From Rheinheimera pacifica (GTDB lineage: Bacteria; Pseudomonadota; Gammaproteobacteria; Enterobacterales; Alteromonadaceae): 64,000 nt of DNA. A program made the translations under genes and the position numbers. Below the pieces are notes generated by a model that searched no databases, had not been told where the DNA came from, and saw only the letters and a list, made by a program, of their open reading frames with translations. Each line of letters opens with the position of its first letter. Positions within the stretch are counted from its first letter, which is position 1. The stretch covers positions 62,001 to 126,000 of the forward strand of contig NZ_FNXF01000007.1 in NCBI RefSeq assembly GCF_900108485.1. Reading direction: 5' to 3'. This document shows positions 9,252 to 35,716 of this stretch, in pieces.

Positions 9252-9390
9252 CCTCTGTATACCGTGGCAAAGCGTGACCGTCTTGCTGAAATTTTCACCA
9301 TCAAACTAATGCAAAGCCGCACCATTCTGCTACAATGCCGCCCCTTTTGCAGGCCAAGGCCCGCAGTTTTTTATTTTGCGGAGCACCAGC

Positions 9391-10773
9391 ATGAGCAACA
9401 CCTCTTTTTCCAGCCTGAATTTACCCGAGGCGCTAGTCAGTAATCTTAACGATTTAGGCTACAGTGCCATGACAGCCATTCAGGCACAGGCACTGCCGGC
9501 AATTCTGGCCGGGCAGGATGTTATCGGCCAGGCTAAAACCGGCTCAGGCAAAACAGCTGCTTTTGGTTTGGGTCTGCTGGCCAAATTAGATGTTAAGTAT
9601 TTTCGCGTGCAAACGCTGGTATTGTGCCCCACGCGTGAGCTGGCCGATCAGGTCGCAGCAGAGCTGCGTAAACTGGCGCGCAGTATTCACAATATAAAAA
9701 TTCTTACCCTGTGCGGTGGCGTGCCAATTGGCCCACAAATCGGCTCACTGGAGCACGGCGCCCATATTATTGTTGGCACGCCGGGCCGGGTGGTTGATCA
9801 TTTAGACAAAGGCCGGCTAAACCTGGACGATTTAACCACGCTGGTGCTGGACGAAGCCGACCGCATGCTGGAAATGGGCTTCCAGGCAGATTTAGATAAC
9901 GTTATAGCTAAAGCGCCGGCTAAGCGCCAAACACTGTTGTTCAGCGCCACCTACCCTAGCGCTATTGCCAAGCTAAGTGAGCGCCTGCTAAACAACCCGT
10001 TGCAGGTAACAGTAGCCGAGCAGCACAGCACCAGCAGCATACAGCAGCAGTTTTTTCAGGTAGCCGACAACAACGCCCGCTTAAGTGCACTGCGTAGCTT
10101 ATTACTGCAGTATCAGGGCCAAAGCAGCATGGTGTTTTGTAATACCAAGCGCGAAACACAAGACGTTGCCGACGCCCTGCATCAGTTTGGTTTTAGCGTA
10201 CTGGCATTGCATGGCGATATGGAGCAAAAAGATCGTGACCAAACCCTGGTGCAGTTTGCCAATGGCAGCGCCTGTATTTTAGTTGCCACCGATGTCGCCG
10301 CCCGCGGTTTGGATATCAGCAGTGTAGATGCGGTATTTAACTACCAGTTGGCGCACGATGCCGACACCCACACCCACCGTATTGGCCGTACCGGCCGCGC
10401 AGGCCAAAGCGGTATTGCACTAAGTTTATTTACCGCCAGTGATGCCGGCAAACTGCTCCCGCTGGAAGATGGCTTAGGTATTAAAATTGATGCAGCTGAG
10501 CTACCGGCTGTAGATATTGCCGTGTTAAAACCGGCTAAGCCGTTAATGGCCACGCTGCAACTGGATGGCGGTAAAAAGCATAAAATCCGTGCTGGTGACA
10601 TTGTTGGCGCCCTCACAGCCAGCAAACAGCTGACCAATGACGACTTGGGTAAAATTCAGCTGCACGATGTCTGGAGCTTTGTCGCGGTAAAACGTACAGC
10701 CGTAAAGCTGGCACTGCAGCTGATCCAGCAAGGTAAAATTAAAGGCAAAAGTATCCGCGCCCGGGCACTGTAA
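9391..10773 (+). CDS. dbpA: ATP-dependent RNA helicase DbpA
   Basis: DEAD-box helicase activated by hairpin 92 of 23S rRNA, acting in large-subunit assembly. The 460-residue product contains the Q motif, AKTGSGKT (Walker A), PTRELA, DEAD (VLDEADRML), SAT and HRIGRTGRAG. From about residue 385 it has the specific C-terminal RNA-recognition domain (IDGGKK/RAGDIVGALT-like and KIKGKSIR), which separates DbpA from other DEAD proteins. The ATG at 9391 follows a GCGGAG site; an in-frame TTG 15 bases upstream is less likely. It is a single-gene unit. Confidence 0.95.
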   Translation: MSNTSFSSLNLPEALVSNLNDLGYSAMTAIQAQALPAILAGQDVIGQAKTGSGKTAAFGLGLLAKLDVKYFRVQTLVLCPTRELADQVAAELRKLARSIHNIKILTLCGGVPIGPQIGSLEHGAHIIVGTPGRVVDHLDKGRLNLDDLTTLVLDEADRMLEMGFQADLDNVIAKAPAKRQTLLFSATYPSAIAKLSERLLNNPLQVTVAEQHSTSSIQQQFFQVADNNARLSALRSLLLQYQGQSSMVFCNTKRETQDVADALHQFGFSVLALHGDMEQKDRDQTLVQFANGSACILVATDVAARGLDISSVDAVFNYQLAHDADTHTHRIGRTGRAGQSGIALSLFTASDAGKLLPLEDGLGIKIDAAELPAVDIAVLKPAKPLMATLQLDGGKKHKIRAGDIVGALTASKQLTNDDLGKIQLHDVWSFVAVKRTAVKLALQLIQQGKIKGKSIRARAL

Positions 10774-10795
10774 TAATGACGACAATTGCCGCGAA

Positions 10796-10900
10796 GCGAG
10801 AACCGGTTTGCCCTAAGCGAACCGTTGAAGGCATGGATGCCTGAATCGAGCCTACAGGGAAGTATTCACGGCGCGTTTGCGTGGGCAAACCGGTTCGCGC
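10796..10900. repeat. Structured intergenic repeat, copy A
   Basis: An 18-bp inverted repeat (10796-10813 with 10883-10900, one mismatch; inner part GAACCGGTTTGCCC) encloses 69 bp. Inside lie a small palindrome AGGCAT-GG-ATGCCT (about 10829-10842) and a 30-base core (10844-10873, starting AATCGAGCCTACAGGG). The same core, with one base different, recurs at 34232-34261 between arms of different sequence. It sits between convergent dbpA and arfB. It could be a REP/MITE-like element or a structured 3' end. Confidence 0.75.
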
Positions 10901-10925
10901 ATAAACCCCATCACCGTTCTGCACA

Positions 10926-11345
10926 CTAGATCTGCGGCTTCCCCTGGCGCAATGCCTTGGTAGCACCACGCTGCTTTTTATGTTCCAGCCGCCGCTGTTG
11001 GCTGCCATAGGTAGCTTTGGTAGCAACCCGTTTTTTTGCCACCCTGGCGGCTGACTGCACCAGCTCAATAAACTGCGCTAATGCCTGCTCGCGGTTCATC
11101 TCCTGGCTGCGGCTCTGCTGGCATTTAATAATAATTTTGCCGCTTTGCGTAATACGATGGTCTGACTTAGCCAGCAGCTTATCTTTATAAAACTGCGGCA
11201 AGCTGGAGGCGTTAATATCAAAAATAAGCTGCGCCGCAGTAGACACCTTATTAACATGCTGGCCACCGGCGCCGCTGGAGCGAATAAACTGCCACTCCAG
11301 TTCATTGTCATTAAGAACCACACTAGCTGAAATCTGAATTGCCAT
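10926..11345 (-). CDS. arfB: Alternative ribosome-rescue factor ArfB
   Basis: Peptidyl-tRNA hydrolase of the class I release-factor fold that frees ribosomes stalled on mRNA without a stop codon. The 139-residue product has the GGQ motif (residues 27-29, in [10 protein letters not shown]) and a basic C-terminal tail (KKQRGATKALRQGK) that enters the empty mRNA channel, without the codon-recognition domain of RF1/RF2. The start at MAIQISAS matches the family; an in-frame extension of 25 residues is rejected. It is convergent with dbpA across repeat copy A. Confidence 0.93.
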   Translation of the reverse strand: MAIQISASVVLNDNELEWQFIRSSGAGGQHVNKVSTAAQLIFDINASSLPQFYKDKLLAKSDHRITQSGKIIIKCQQSRSQEMNREQALAQFIELVQSAARVAKKRVATKATYGSQQRRLEHKKQRGATKALRQGKPQI

Positions 11346-11542
11346 GCTGTCGCTATAAGTTGCTGCGTTAATACCCCGATCAGACCACAAGCACCGCCGT
11401 GACACAAGTTTAACAGCCAATACCTACAGCACTTTGTGGTATACGCCTAAAGTCTATGCACCTTAAGTCTAAGTTCGTTAACTGCAATTTTTAGCTACAG
11501 TAATGCCATTGTCGTTACCACTACCGACGTAAGGATACCAAC

Positions 11543-33095: not shown

Positions 33096-34148
33096 ATGGA
33101 CAAAAGACAATTTATAAAAAGCTGTGCCCTGACCGCCGCCCTGTTACCGCTGGCCGGTTGCAGCAGCGTAATGGCCGCCCCTGCAGGCGGTAATAACAAA
33201 CGCCTGTTACCACTGGCATTAAACAAAGGCGATACCGTCGCCCTGGTTAGCCCCTCTAAAGCCACCGATGAAGCCCTGGATTTACAAATTGCCCAAGAGG
33301 TGATGCAGGCGCTTGGTTTTAAGGTAAAAACCGGCAAACACCTTGCCGCGCGCCGTGGCCATTTGGCCGGTACCGACGCTGAGCGCGCCAGCGATATTAA
33401 CGCCATGTTTGCCGACAAAGAAGTAAAAGCTATTATTTGCCTGCGCGGTGGCTCGGGTGCCGCACGGTTATTGCCCCTGCTGGATTACAAGCTTATTCGC
33501 AACAACCCCAAGGTTTTACTGGGTTATTCAGACATTACCGCGCTGCACAATGCCATTCATGCCCAGACCGGTTTAATCAGTTTCCATGGCCCGAACGGCA
33601 CCGGCAGCTGGAACAGCTTTAATGCCGATCAGTTTCAGCGGGTATTTTTCGATCGCGAATTAATGCAGTACCAAAATGTGCTGGACGCCAAAGACGAGCT
33701 GGTAGCACGGCAAAACCGCACCGTAACCATTACCGGTGGTAAAGTTCAGGGCGAGCTGGTTGGGGGGAATCTTACGGTACTAACCGCACTGGCAGGCTCG
33801 CCTTATTTACCTGATTTCACCGGTAAAATTTTATTTTTAGAAGATGTAGAAGAAGCCCCCTACCGCATCGACCGTATGCTTAGCACACTAAAACTGATGG
33901 GCGCGCTGGATAAAATAGCCGGTTTTATTTTCGGGGAATGCACTGCATGCCGCCCCAGCGGTGGTTATGGCTGGCTAACGATGGACCAGATTTTTGAAGA
34001 CCATATTAAACCGCTGAATATACCGGCATACCGCGGCGCCATGATTGGCCACATCCGCCAGCAGTTTATTGTGCCGGTGGGTGGCCGCGTTGAGCTGGAT
34101 GCCGATGCCGGTACCTTCCGTTTGCTGGAAAGTGTGTTTCAAAGTTAA
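33096..34148 (+). CDS. LD-carboxypeptidase (S66 family), lipoprotein
   Basis: Peptidase of the LdcA family that trims muropeptide tetrapeptides, or a related microcin-resistance protein. The lipobox LAGC ends at C22, so it is predicted to be a lipoprotein at the inner or outer membrane, unlike cytosolic E. coli LdcA. The nucleophile S145 (LLGYSDIT), the glutamate in FLEDVEEAPYRIDRML and the histidine in IGHIRQQF form the family triad. The N-terminus MDKRQFIKSCALTAAL is slightly Tat-like but lacks RR. 350 residues, normal for secreted members. Confidence 0.87.
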   Translation: MDKRQFIKSCALTAALLPLAGCSSVMAAPAGGNNKRLLPLALNKGDTVALVSPSKATDEALDLQIAQEVMQALGFKVKTGKHLAARRGHLAGTDAERASDINAMFADKEVKAIICLRGGSGAARLLPLLDYKLIRNNPKVLLGYSDITALHNAIHAQTGLISFHGPNGTGSWNSFNADQFQRVFFDRELMQYQNVLDAKDELVARQNRTVTITGGKVQGELVGGNLTVLTALAGSPYLPDFTGKILFLEDVEEAPYRIDRMLSTLKLMGALDKIAGFIFGECTACRPSGGYGWLTMDQIFEDHIKPLNIPAYRGAMIGHIRQQFIVPVGGRVELDADAGTFRLLESVFQS

Positions 34149-34159
34149 TGCTGACCAGT

Positions 34160-34288
34160 AGAGGATTCGGATTACTCTAAGCCGACCGTTGCAGGCCAGC
34201 ACAGCTGTTCCCCAGCAAGGATGAAGTTTATAATCGAGCCTACAGGGAAGTATTTACGGCGTGTCGGTGTGAGTAATGCGGATCCTCT
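34160..34288. repeat. Structured intergenic repeat, copy B
   Basis: Arms 34160-34177 and 34271-34288 pair at 16 of 18 positions (AGAGGATTCGGATTACTC against the reverse complement). They enclose 93 bp with the core 34232-34261, which equals the core of copy A (10844-10873) but for one base. The bases just inside the left arm (TAAGC, then GACCGTTG) also match copy A (TAAGCGAACCGTTG). The arms themselves differ completely from copy A. It lies between convergent genes. Confidence 0.75.
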
Positions 34289-34301
34289 TACTACTGAACT
34301 T

Positions 34302-34417: not shown

Positions 34418-35716
34418 TCATCTCTCCCAGTAAGCTTCTTCCAGGCTATCTTCACGCTCCGGCAGGCCCTTGGACAAGCGCGGCGCGTTTTGCACCAGAA
34501 TTTCATAACTTACCCGGTTAGCATACTTACAAATTTGTGCGAAAGATGAATACGCCAGATACGGCTGCTCATGCTTGCCGGATAACGGCTGCACCTGCTT
34601 ATGAAAATGATTCGCCGCCATATCATGCAAAATAGCTGACAGCGCGCCATCACCGGCGCCGTTAGTGTTTTTAATCCGCTCCGGCCCGCCTAAATACGGA
34701 TCAATATGCGAATACACTTTCAGTGGCTTGTCACAGTTCGCATGCAACATCGGCCGGCTGAATTCATACTGGTTAAAATCGGCCAGGCTGGCCGATTTTA
34801 TCGGGTTACTGCTTTCACGCTTTACATTATCGTCGGTGTGGCCACACAGGTATAACCCTTCCGGCCCGGCGGTGATCAGCACCATATCAGTGTGATCCAA
34901 TATCGCTTCGGCGGCTTTCAGCGGATCGGCACAGCCGGTTAAGGCTTCAGCTTCCAGTTCGTTCATTGCCAGCACATTAACGTAATCTTTAATAGTGCTA
35001 AGAATTTGCTCGCGATTTTCTTCTACCAAATGCCGGGTGCCCAGGCTCATCACCACCGGCACATTATGCGCTTTGGCATCCTGCAGGGCTTTAAACATCG
35101 CCTGCTGAATCGGCTGATCTGTGGCACGCAGCGGGTAAGCACTCACCACAAAAGCCGCGGCTCCGGCGATAATATCAGTAGGAATGTAATCCGGGCTTAG
35201 CTCATCCATATCGCTGGGGTCGATAACAAAGGTACGCTCGCCGTCCGGCGTTATCATGGTAATACCCCGACCAATATCACCGGCCACGCCCTGTAAATGG
35301 TTCATATCCACTTTCGAGCTGGTATGACAAACATAGTGATATGCCGGAGATCCCAGCGCAATATTGGCTGACATGACGCCCAGCAACACCGATTTATCAT
35401 CAGCCAGTACGGAATAATTGTGGATGGTATTGCCAATAGTACCGCCAGCGAAATGATCCGATATGGCCTGCTGCGCCACCAACTCCTGATAAATTAAATT
35501 AGCTTTGCCGTGTTCTACCAGATTAGATAAGCCTTTGCGGATATTATACTTTTGCAGAAATTCATCGCTAACGCTGGCGACCACATCCACAATGGTTTGA
35601 TCCAGGCCAACGATATAGGTATCCAGCTCTGGCCGTACTTCAAAGCTGGGCAACTGAGGCTTGGGCTGGGATACCGGGAAATAATGTTTAATTTTACGCA
35701 GGCCGGGAAATTTCAT
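34418..35716 (-). CDS. gsk: Inosine-guanosine kinase
   Basis: PfkB-family kinase that phosphorylates inosine and guanosine in purine salvage. The 432-residue product aligns with E. coli Gsk along its length: MKFPGLRKIKHYFPV, FAGGTIGNTIHNYSVLADD, VLAMNELEAEALTG and NTNGAGDGALSA (catalytic-base signature), ending LPEREDSLEEAYWER. Single-gene unit; yaaA lies upstream on the same strand at 111 bp. Confidence 0.95.
   Translation of the reverse strand: MKFPGLRKIKHYFPVSQPKPQLPSFEVRPELDTYIVGLDQTIVDVVASVSDEFLQKYNIRKGLSNLVEHGKANLIYQELVAQQAISDHFAGGTIGNTIHNYSVLADDKSVLLGVMSANIALGSPAYHYVCHTSSKVDMNHLQGVAGDIGRGITMITPDGERTFVIDPSDMDELSPDYIPTDIIAGAAAFVVSAYPLRATDQPIQQAMFKALQDAKAHNVPVVMSLGTRHLVEENREQILSTIKDYVNVLAMNELEAEALTGCADPLKAAEAILDHTDMVLITAGPEGLYLCGHTDDNVKRESSNPIKSASLADFNQYEFSRPMLHANCDKPLKVYSHIDPYLGGPERIKNTNGAGDGALSAILHDMAANHFHKQVQPLSGKHEQPYLAYSSFAQICKYANRVSYEILVQNAPRLSKGLPEREDSLEEAYWER

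Follow-up and report, generated by a model that had tools for sequence, protein, structure and literature searches.

The window analyzed here, a stretch of 64,000 nucleotides from Rheinheimera pacifica, holds two copies (A and B) of a short sequence in which a shared core lies between complementary arms, and the question is what kind of element they represent. An earlier note, made from the letters of the window, had described the arms of copy A, a 30-base core common to the two copies and a second pair of complementary arms around copy B. Recomputation confirmed each of these descriptions, with the core at 10844-10873 in copy A and a best pair of arms for copy B (Table 1). The first 16 bases of the core occur exactly twice in the window, with one further place at 3 mismatches, and none of 100 shuffles gave three matches at up to 3 mismatches. 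The predicted fold of copy A has an energy of -54.5 kcal/mol (z -5.75), whereas shuffled sequences average -33.99 and none of 200 was as good. What the earlier note did not describe was the inner anatomy, two hairpins (P2 and P3) with A-N-GGA-N loops inside the outer stem (P1).

Table 1. Positions in the window of the parts of copies A and B.
Feature	Position	Strand	Remarks
Copy A, outer stem P1, 5' arm	10796-10813	+	pairs at 17 of 18 positions with 10883-10900; covaries in set A2
Copy A, outer stem P1, 3' arm	10883-10900	+	pairs at 17 of 18 positions with the 5' arm; covaries in set A2
Copy A, inner P1, 5' side	10817-10822	+	beyond a TAA / GT bulge; pairs with 10875-10880
Copy A, inner P1, 3' side	10875-10880	+	pairs with 10817-10822
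Copy A, hairpin P2	10823-10848	+	loop ATGGAT at 10833-10838
Copy A, hairpin P3	10850-10872	+	TAC-AGGGAA-GTA (10853-10864), lengthened by GCC/GGC
Copy B, outer stem P1, 5' arm	34159-34177	+	16 Watson-Crick pairs and one G-T among 19 with 34271-34289
Copy B, outer stem P1, 3' arm	34271-34289	+	pairs with 34159-34177
Copy B, long-form P2 remnant	34190-34231	+	shortened; low score with model R2; fuller form elsewhere
Copy B, shared core containing hairpin P3 (34241-34252)	34232-34261	+	one difference from copy A

Both copies sit between convergent genes. Copy A is flanked by a gene (9376-10773, plus strand) for a DEAD-box helicase carrying a DbpA domain and an RF-1-domain gene (10926-11420, minus strand), and copy B by a Peptidase_S66 gene (33096-34148, plus strand) and a PfkB-family gene (34418-35716, minus strand). 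At Rfam gathering scores only a single tRNA was found in the whole window, and no family in 12 related loci. A blastn search of copy A against phage and plasmid sequences gave no match at E 0.01, and a promoter scan called no sigma-70-like promoter near either copy.

The genome holds many more copies than these two. A 23-base core pattern allowing up to 3 mismatches was found at 14 places, and the same pattern written backward, used as control, at none; the 30-base version of the core was found at 15 places, and at least twice in each of 31 Rheinheimera genomes. A covariance model built from 24 copies (R1) gave 48 matches in the R. pacifica genome at E ≤0.01, and 31 of the 31 genus genomes were positive, with 11 to 62 matches each at E 0.001. 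These counts rule out that the genome has only two copies, the outcome that would have refuted the earlier note.

The element also extends beyond the genus. An exact core scan of GTDB genomes returned at least 119 stretches; among the 80 listed, the source titles are gammaproteobacterial or unresolved, except for one Rhodobacteraceae MAG. The listed carriers include Rheinheimera, Arsukibacterium, Marinobacter, Microbulbifer, Halopseudomonas, Stenotrophomonas, Luteimonas, Lysobacter, Arenimonas, Thermomonas, Aquisalimonas, Cellvibrio and Oceanimonas, among others. Of 369 genomes of the class, 74 had matches to model R2 at E ≤1e-4; these E-values are rough, and the best E in seven of the 74 was 9e-6 or worse. 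The exact core pattern by itself was found in nine of the same 369. Copies were also seen in contigs labelled as Klebsiella pneumoniae and Rhodobacteraceae MAGs (L181, L184), which are possibly misbinned, and a viral contig collection gave a single match to the core pattern (L257, 6229-6250).

The earlier note had called the arms of the two copies unrelated, and this was half right. The comparison of arms used 30 ungapped, non-redundant copies, which had been picked out by the core together with an ACCG-type anchor at a set distance. Over the first 15 arm positions 85.1% of cells were paired in register, and at most 48.2% when the arms were slid by one to three positions. Each copy had on average 12.8 of 15 positions paired, compared with 9.9 when right arms were swapped between copies (maximum 10.8 in 1000 shuffles), and the pairing persists for about 14 positions and then drops. 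Since one consensus fits most of the arms and the two sides vary together, they are homologous parts of one element, and the suggestion that a hairpin acquires its ends from elsewhere is not supported for the main subfamily. A second subfamily does have other outer arms (L012-L014, L027, L053, L081); some of its copies are flanked by GTACATCCG / CGGATGTAC, and L014 has another element nearby on the opposite strand.

Long forms also occur (L004, L006, L008, L046, L060), with extra inverted repeats after P2 of the types AAATTCG-nnGGA-CGAATTT and AACTTC-ATGGAT-GAAGTT. Read by eye in R. pacifica and in the genus genomes, such forms have additional inverted repeats with GGA in the interval from P2 to P3. 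Loci L019 and L006 have the same flanks, with the short form in one species and the long form in another. In copy B a long form has been shortened and its P2 has decayed: the copy scores 28.9 bits with model R2, compared with 65.6 bits for copy A, and a fuller long form sharing its right flank was found by eye in another genus genome (G004, L062). A variant in L015 and L083 has C changed to G at the base of P3 and its proposed partner G changed to A (CAAGCG...ACAGCG), with loss of the standard pair.

The inner folding was addressed with two sets of copies. The cross-genus set, A3, holds 25 sequences out of 57 non-redundant copies (of 84 covering the full interval), namely the 28 copies in which 8 or more of the 11 P1 pairs were in register, minus L145, L174 and L200. 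P1 pairing was thus selected in A3 and the letters of P3 were set by the search pattern, so that their invariance proves nothing, while P2 was subject to neither. In this set 95.7% of cells were paired against 71.6% in shuffles, and 148 cells had changes on both sides against 40.7, each value being reached in 0 of 500 shuffles. Both-side changes were found at 18 pairs (matched by 2 of 500 shuffles), including 9 of the 10 pairs of P2, and slid registers paired at most 42.1%. RNAalifold, run on A3 with no structure given, returned the identical junction minus one pair. Across all 57 copies without selection, read ungapped, 612 of 912 P1 cells and 400 of 570 P2 cells were paired. Outside the genus the typical form is a plain three-way junction, with the P1 arms, a P2 of up to 10 pairs with an A-N-GGA-N loop, and then P3.

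The genus set, A2, consists of 24 of the 30 non-redundant ungapped copies, themselves drawn from 50 of 94 core copies; the six with other arms were left out. With the structure originally drawn for A2, in which CGTTG pairs with CGGCG, 96.0% of cells are paired and both-side changes occur at 18 pairs, compared with 7.8 in shuffles (equalled in 0 of 500). That structure was replaced by the cross-genus junction, with which 88.5% of A2 cells are paired, fewer than before. Inner P1 was paired in 100% of A2 cells, with both-side changes in 4 of 6 pairs. Against the junction, P2 was paired in just 67.1% of A2 cells, and RNAalifold on the genus set chose a different partner for the 5' side of P2. For Rheinheimera itself, the junction is therefore one of two candidate inner foldings. 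For the element as a whole, these data show a dispersed structured repeat with the form of a three-way junction, in which a variable P1 encloses hairpins P2 and P3 with A-N-GGA-N loops. The earlier note's proposal of selection on a folded structure, whether of DNA or of RNA, finds support in the many copies with varied but paired arms, in covariation far above shuffles and in an excess of G-U over A-C cells on one strand.

That excess bears on which strand folds. If it is the GGA strand, G-U cells should exceed A-C cells when read on that strand, as was seen in A3 (15 against 4) and in A2 (38 against 15); P2 of A2 taken alone, with 6 G-U and 7 A-C, goes against it. One of the two closest known families in Rfam lies on the other strand. 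Ysr224 (RF02770, Yersinia sRNA 224) is the same element in reverse: at locus L082 the reverse complement of its consensus aligns over both P2 and P3, all four of its matches in the R. pacifica genome lie opposite R1 matches, and its family model differs in being drawn on the strand other than the GGA strand. Its gathering score of 70 bits was not reached in the 8 genomes tried, where the best was 47 bits. Ysr224 is tabulated among the 20 most prevalent sRNAs (PMC9029176) and is multicopy in Yersinia ruckeri, with copies that are differently expressed (PMC12112432); the available passages of these two reports state no link to CsrA.

TwoAYGGAY (RF01731) has two AYGGAY-loop hairpins within a poorly conserved outer stem, and belongs to Rfam clan CL00106 together with CsrB. 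It has been proposed to bind CsrA (PMC4333381) and is listed for human gut, gammaproteobacteria and Clostridiales (PMC2864571), and the relevant passages of both papers describe no dispersed repeat. Our element, too, has two GGA-loop hairpins in one stem, but with N and not Y as the second loop base, so that it fits the AYGGAY pattern in part. On the element's own strand at L082, TwoAYGGAY scored 18.9 bits (E 1.3) against a gathering score of 43, and it gave no match at the copy A stretch of the window up to E 5 or in 10 loci up to E 10. We place the element in neither Ysr224 nor TwoAYGGAY; by its anatomy it would work like the latter. A statement linking Ysr224, TwoAYGGAY and CsrA was not found in our literature searches, several of which covered the top of long result lists.

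CsrA is a global regulator, and A-N-GGA-N is the recognition motif of CsrA/RsmA. The CsrB, CsrC and Rsm sRNAs (RF00018 and kin) bind CsrA with GGA hairpins; they are single loci with many GGA sites, whereas the element has many copies with two sites each, or more in long forms. CsrB (RF00018) gave no match at 10700-11000 of the window up to E 5. The SELEX consensus for CsrA is RUACARGGAUGU, best bound when GGA sits in a hairpin loop (PMC4347634). P3 (CUAC-ANGGAY-GUA) matches this consensus except for C at the first R, and P3 of copy A agrees in 10 of the 12 bases, with C in place of R and A in place of U. In P2, the loop A-N-GGA was present in 25 of the 25 A3 sequences while the stem varies, and A-N-GGA presented on a hairpin of variable stem is the mark by which CsrA/RsmA-binding RNAs are recognized. 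GGA lay inside the folded P2 loop in 79 of 84 copies, compared with 229 of 1680 shuffles.

The 30 best matches in the R. pacifica genome agree with this in part. ANGGAN was found in P3 of all 30, in letters that the model favors, on stems of CCC/GGG (14 copies), TAC/GTA (11), TAT/ATA (1) or two pairs only (4). A script found GGA in P2 of 29 of them, and the exception (L135) has it by eye. Several folding results count against the CsrA reading: the full A-N-GGA was unpaired in the folded P2 loop in only 16 of 84 copies (27 of 1680 shuffles) because its A often pairs, the minimum-energy fold of copy A contains P2 and lacks P3, and minimum-energy folds of the 30 copies showed at least one GGA loop in 26 and two in just 12.

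Within the R. pacifica genome, csrA had one match and CsrB-like RNAs had two, at 38.8 and 25.9 bits, both under the Rfam gathering score. The latter are located at L106 (1428-1763) and L107 (about 1501-1793), the two sharing this pair of scores, contain repeated CAGGATG motifs and are probably the genus's own CsrB/CsrC. Across the class, csrA was present in 69 of the 74 element-bearing genomes and 244 of the 295 others (Fisher p 0.028, tables joined by eye), and among good genomes in 61 of 62 and 219 of 252, respectively (p 0.0056). This association gives weak support, since reduced genomes can lack both. Four of the five element-bearing genomes without csrA are 67-88% complete; the fifth, a draft that is 98% complete (G226), has 9 element matches and no csrA found, which counts against the CsrA reading. 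In other work, two CsrA-related sRNAs were described in Alcanivorax (PMC9788540), and other intergenic repeats were judged unlikely CsrA targets (PMC4679880). Taken together, sequence and predicted fold suggest that the hairpins bind CsrA, and we give a structured element with CsrA-binding hairpins a probability of about 0.6.

The position of the element relative to genes and its turnover bear on the alternatives. Context was counted after excluding 25 of 75 cross-taxa loci in which the element overlaps a long open frame, one more that did not have a neighbor on each side, and 4 of 30 loci in R. pacifica. The 26 clean R. pacifica copies comprised 10 convergent, 9 antisense, 6 sense and 1 divergent, the 49 cross-taxa loci 20, 17, 11 and 1, and an earlier count of 44 loci with orthologues kept 17, 12, 11 and 4, respectively. 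Elements lie near the 3' ends of genes and point either way. The lack of a sense bias speaks against a simple 3'-UTR role; it also counts against the CsrA reading, as do the absence of a promoter call near copies A and B and the decayed P2 of copy B. In 28 of the 31 genus genomes the gene upstream of copy A could be located. By eye, an element in the same orientation follows its 3' side in six of them (G000, G005, G015, G018, G027 and, with P3 changed, G004), while the locus holds a long form in G010, an inverted element in G016 and G024, a deletion derivative in G021 and no element in, for example, G012, G013 and G028. Variation at this locus is turnover of the kind seen in repeats, and the element may be mobile.

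Such differences between species at a single locus, from presence or absence to inversion and deletion, would also be expected of a mobile DNA repeat of the REP or MITE kind, whose hairpins serve as single-stranded DNA signals for a transposase (e.g., RAYT, of the Y1 type), with the GGA loops as the recognition bases of that enzyme and CsrA irrelevant. The element is a dispersed, multicopy repeat that adjoins gene 3' ends in both orientations and is rare in divergent regions, the genome has two Y1_Tnp matches, and the G-T excess over A-C would also fit single-stranded DNA. REP repeats (GTAG and CGTC families) are likewise short, palindromic and mostly downstream of coding regions (PMC3733652), but a REP is a palindrome of 20-40 bp, whereas the element has about 75-105 bases with two internal hairpins. 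It is also not beside either Y1_Tnp match, the loci around them (L286, L287) having no R1 or R2 matches. In the loci found without the element (L269, L270, L274) the flanks are too diverged to reveal a target site duplication or a clean empty site. Under this explanation the fit to the CsrA consensus and the GGA of the second hairpin would be coincidence, and we consider the explanation unlikely.

The same placement could reflect a 3'-end element, a terminator or mRNA stabilizer whose long outer stem acts from both sides between convergent genes. Copies often lie a few to tens of bases past a stop codon, more of them fall between convergent genes than in any other setting, and the fold of copy A is stable. 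Yet TTTT within 12 nt of an arm was found in one of 30 copies on each strand, so the T-run of an intrinsic terminator is lacking, a terminator scan limited to loops of 3-8 made no call at copy A or B, and the constant GGA loop of P2 is left unexplained; this makes a 3'-end function improbable. We regard as very improbable that the working RNA is the opposite strand, acting as an ordinary base-pairing sRNA. That is the strand of the Ysr224 model, with matches at E down to 1.5e-9, and transcripts under the name Ysr224, in several copies, are reported from Yersinia ruckeri (PMC12112432, in a passage that gives no strand); but A-C cells, which are G-U on the opposite strand, are in the minority in both sets, and the loops would there read UCC.

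Returning to CsrA binding, the element, if transcribed from the GGA strand, would form a P1 enclosing P2 and P3, each showing A-N-GGA-N. Each putative RNA could then bind one CsrA dimer via its two GGA sites, about 23 nt apart, and tens of copies might constitute a distributed CsrA sink or provide local CsrA sites near gene ends. A sponge role for CsrA, taken alone, is a tentative proposal. More speculative is the full picture of a self-spreading RNA repeat that scatters paired CsrA sites in tens of copies, so that CsrA titration would rest partly on mobile repeats near gene ends and not on CsrB-type genes, and in which Ysr224 would be this element read from the wrong strand.

The novelty appears to lie in the scale of the family, in a structure assigned to the GGA strand and in connecting Ysr224 and TwoAYGGAY with CsrA. 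Binding of CsrA by the repeats would bring a large group of gammaproteobacterial intergenic repeats that seem silent into a global regulatory circuit, and the copy number of the element could tune CsrA activity between species. The strand and function of the abundant Rfam family Ysr224 would then need revision, and the element would be an example of a repeat that spreads binding sites for a global regulator.
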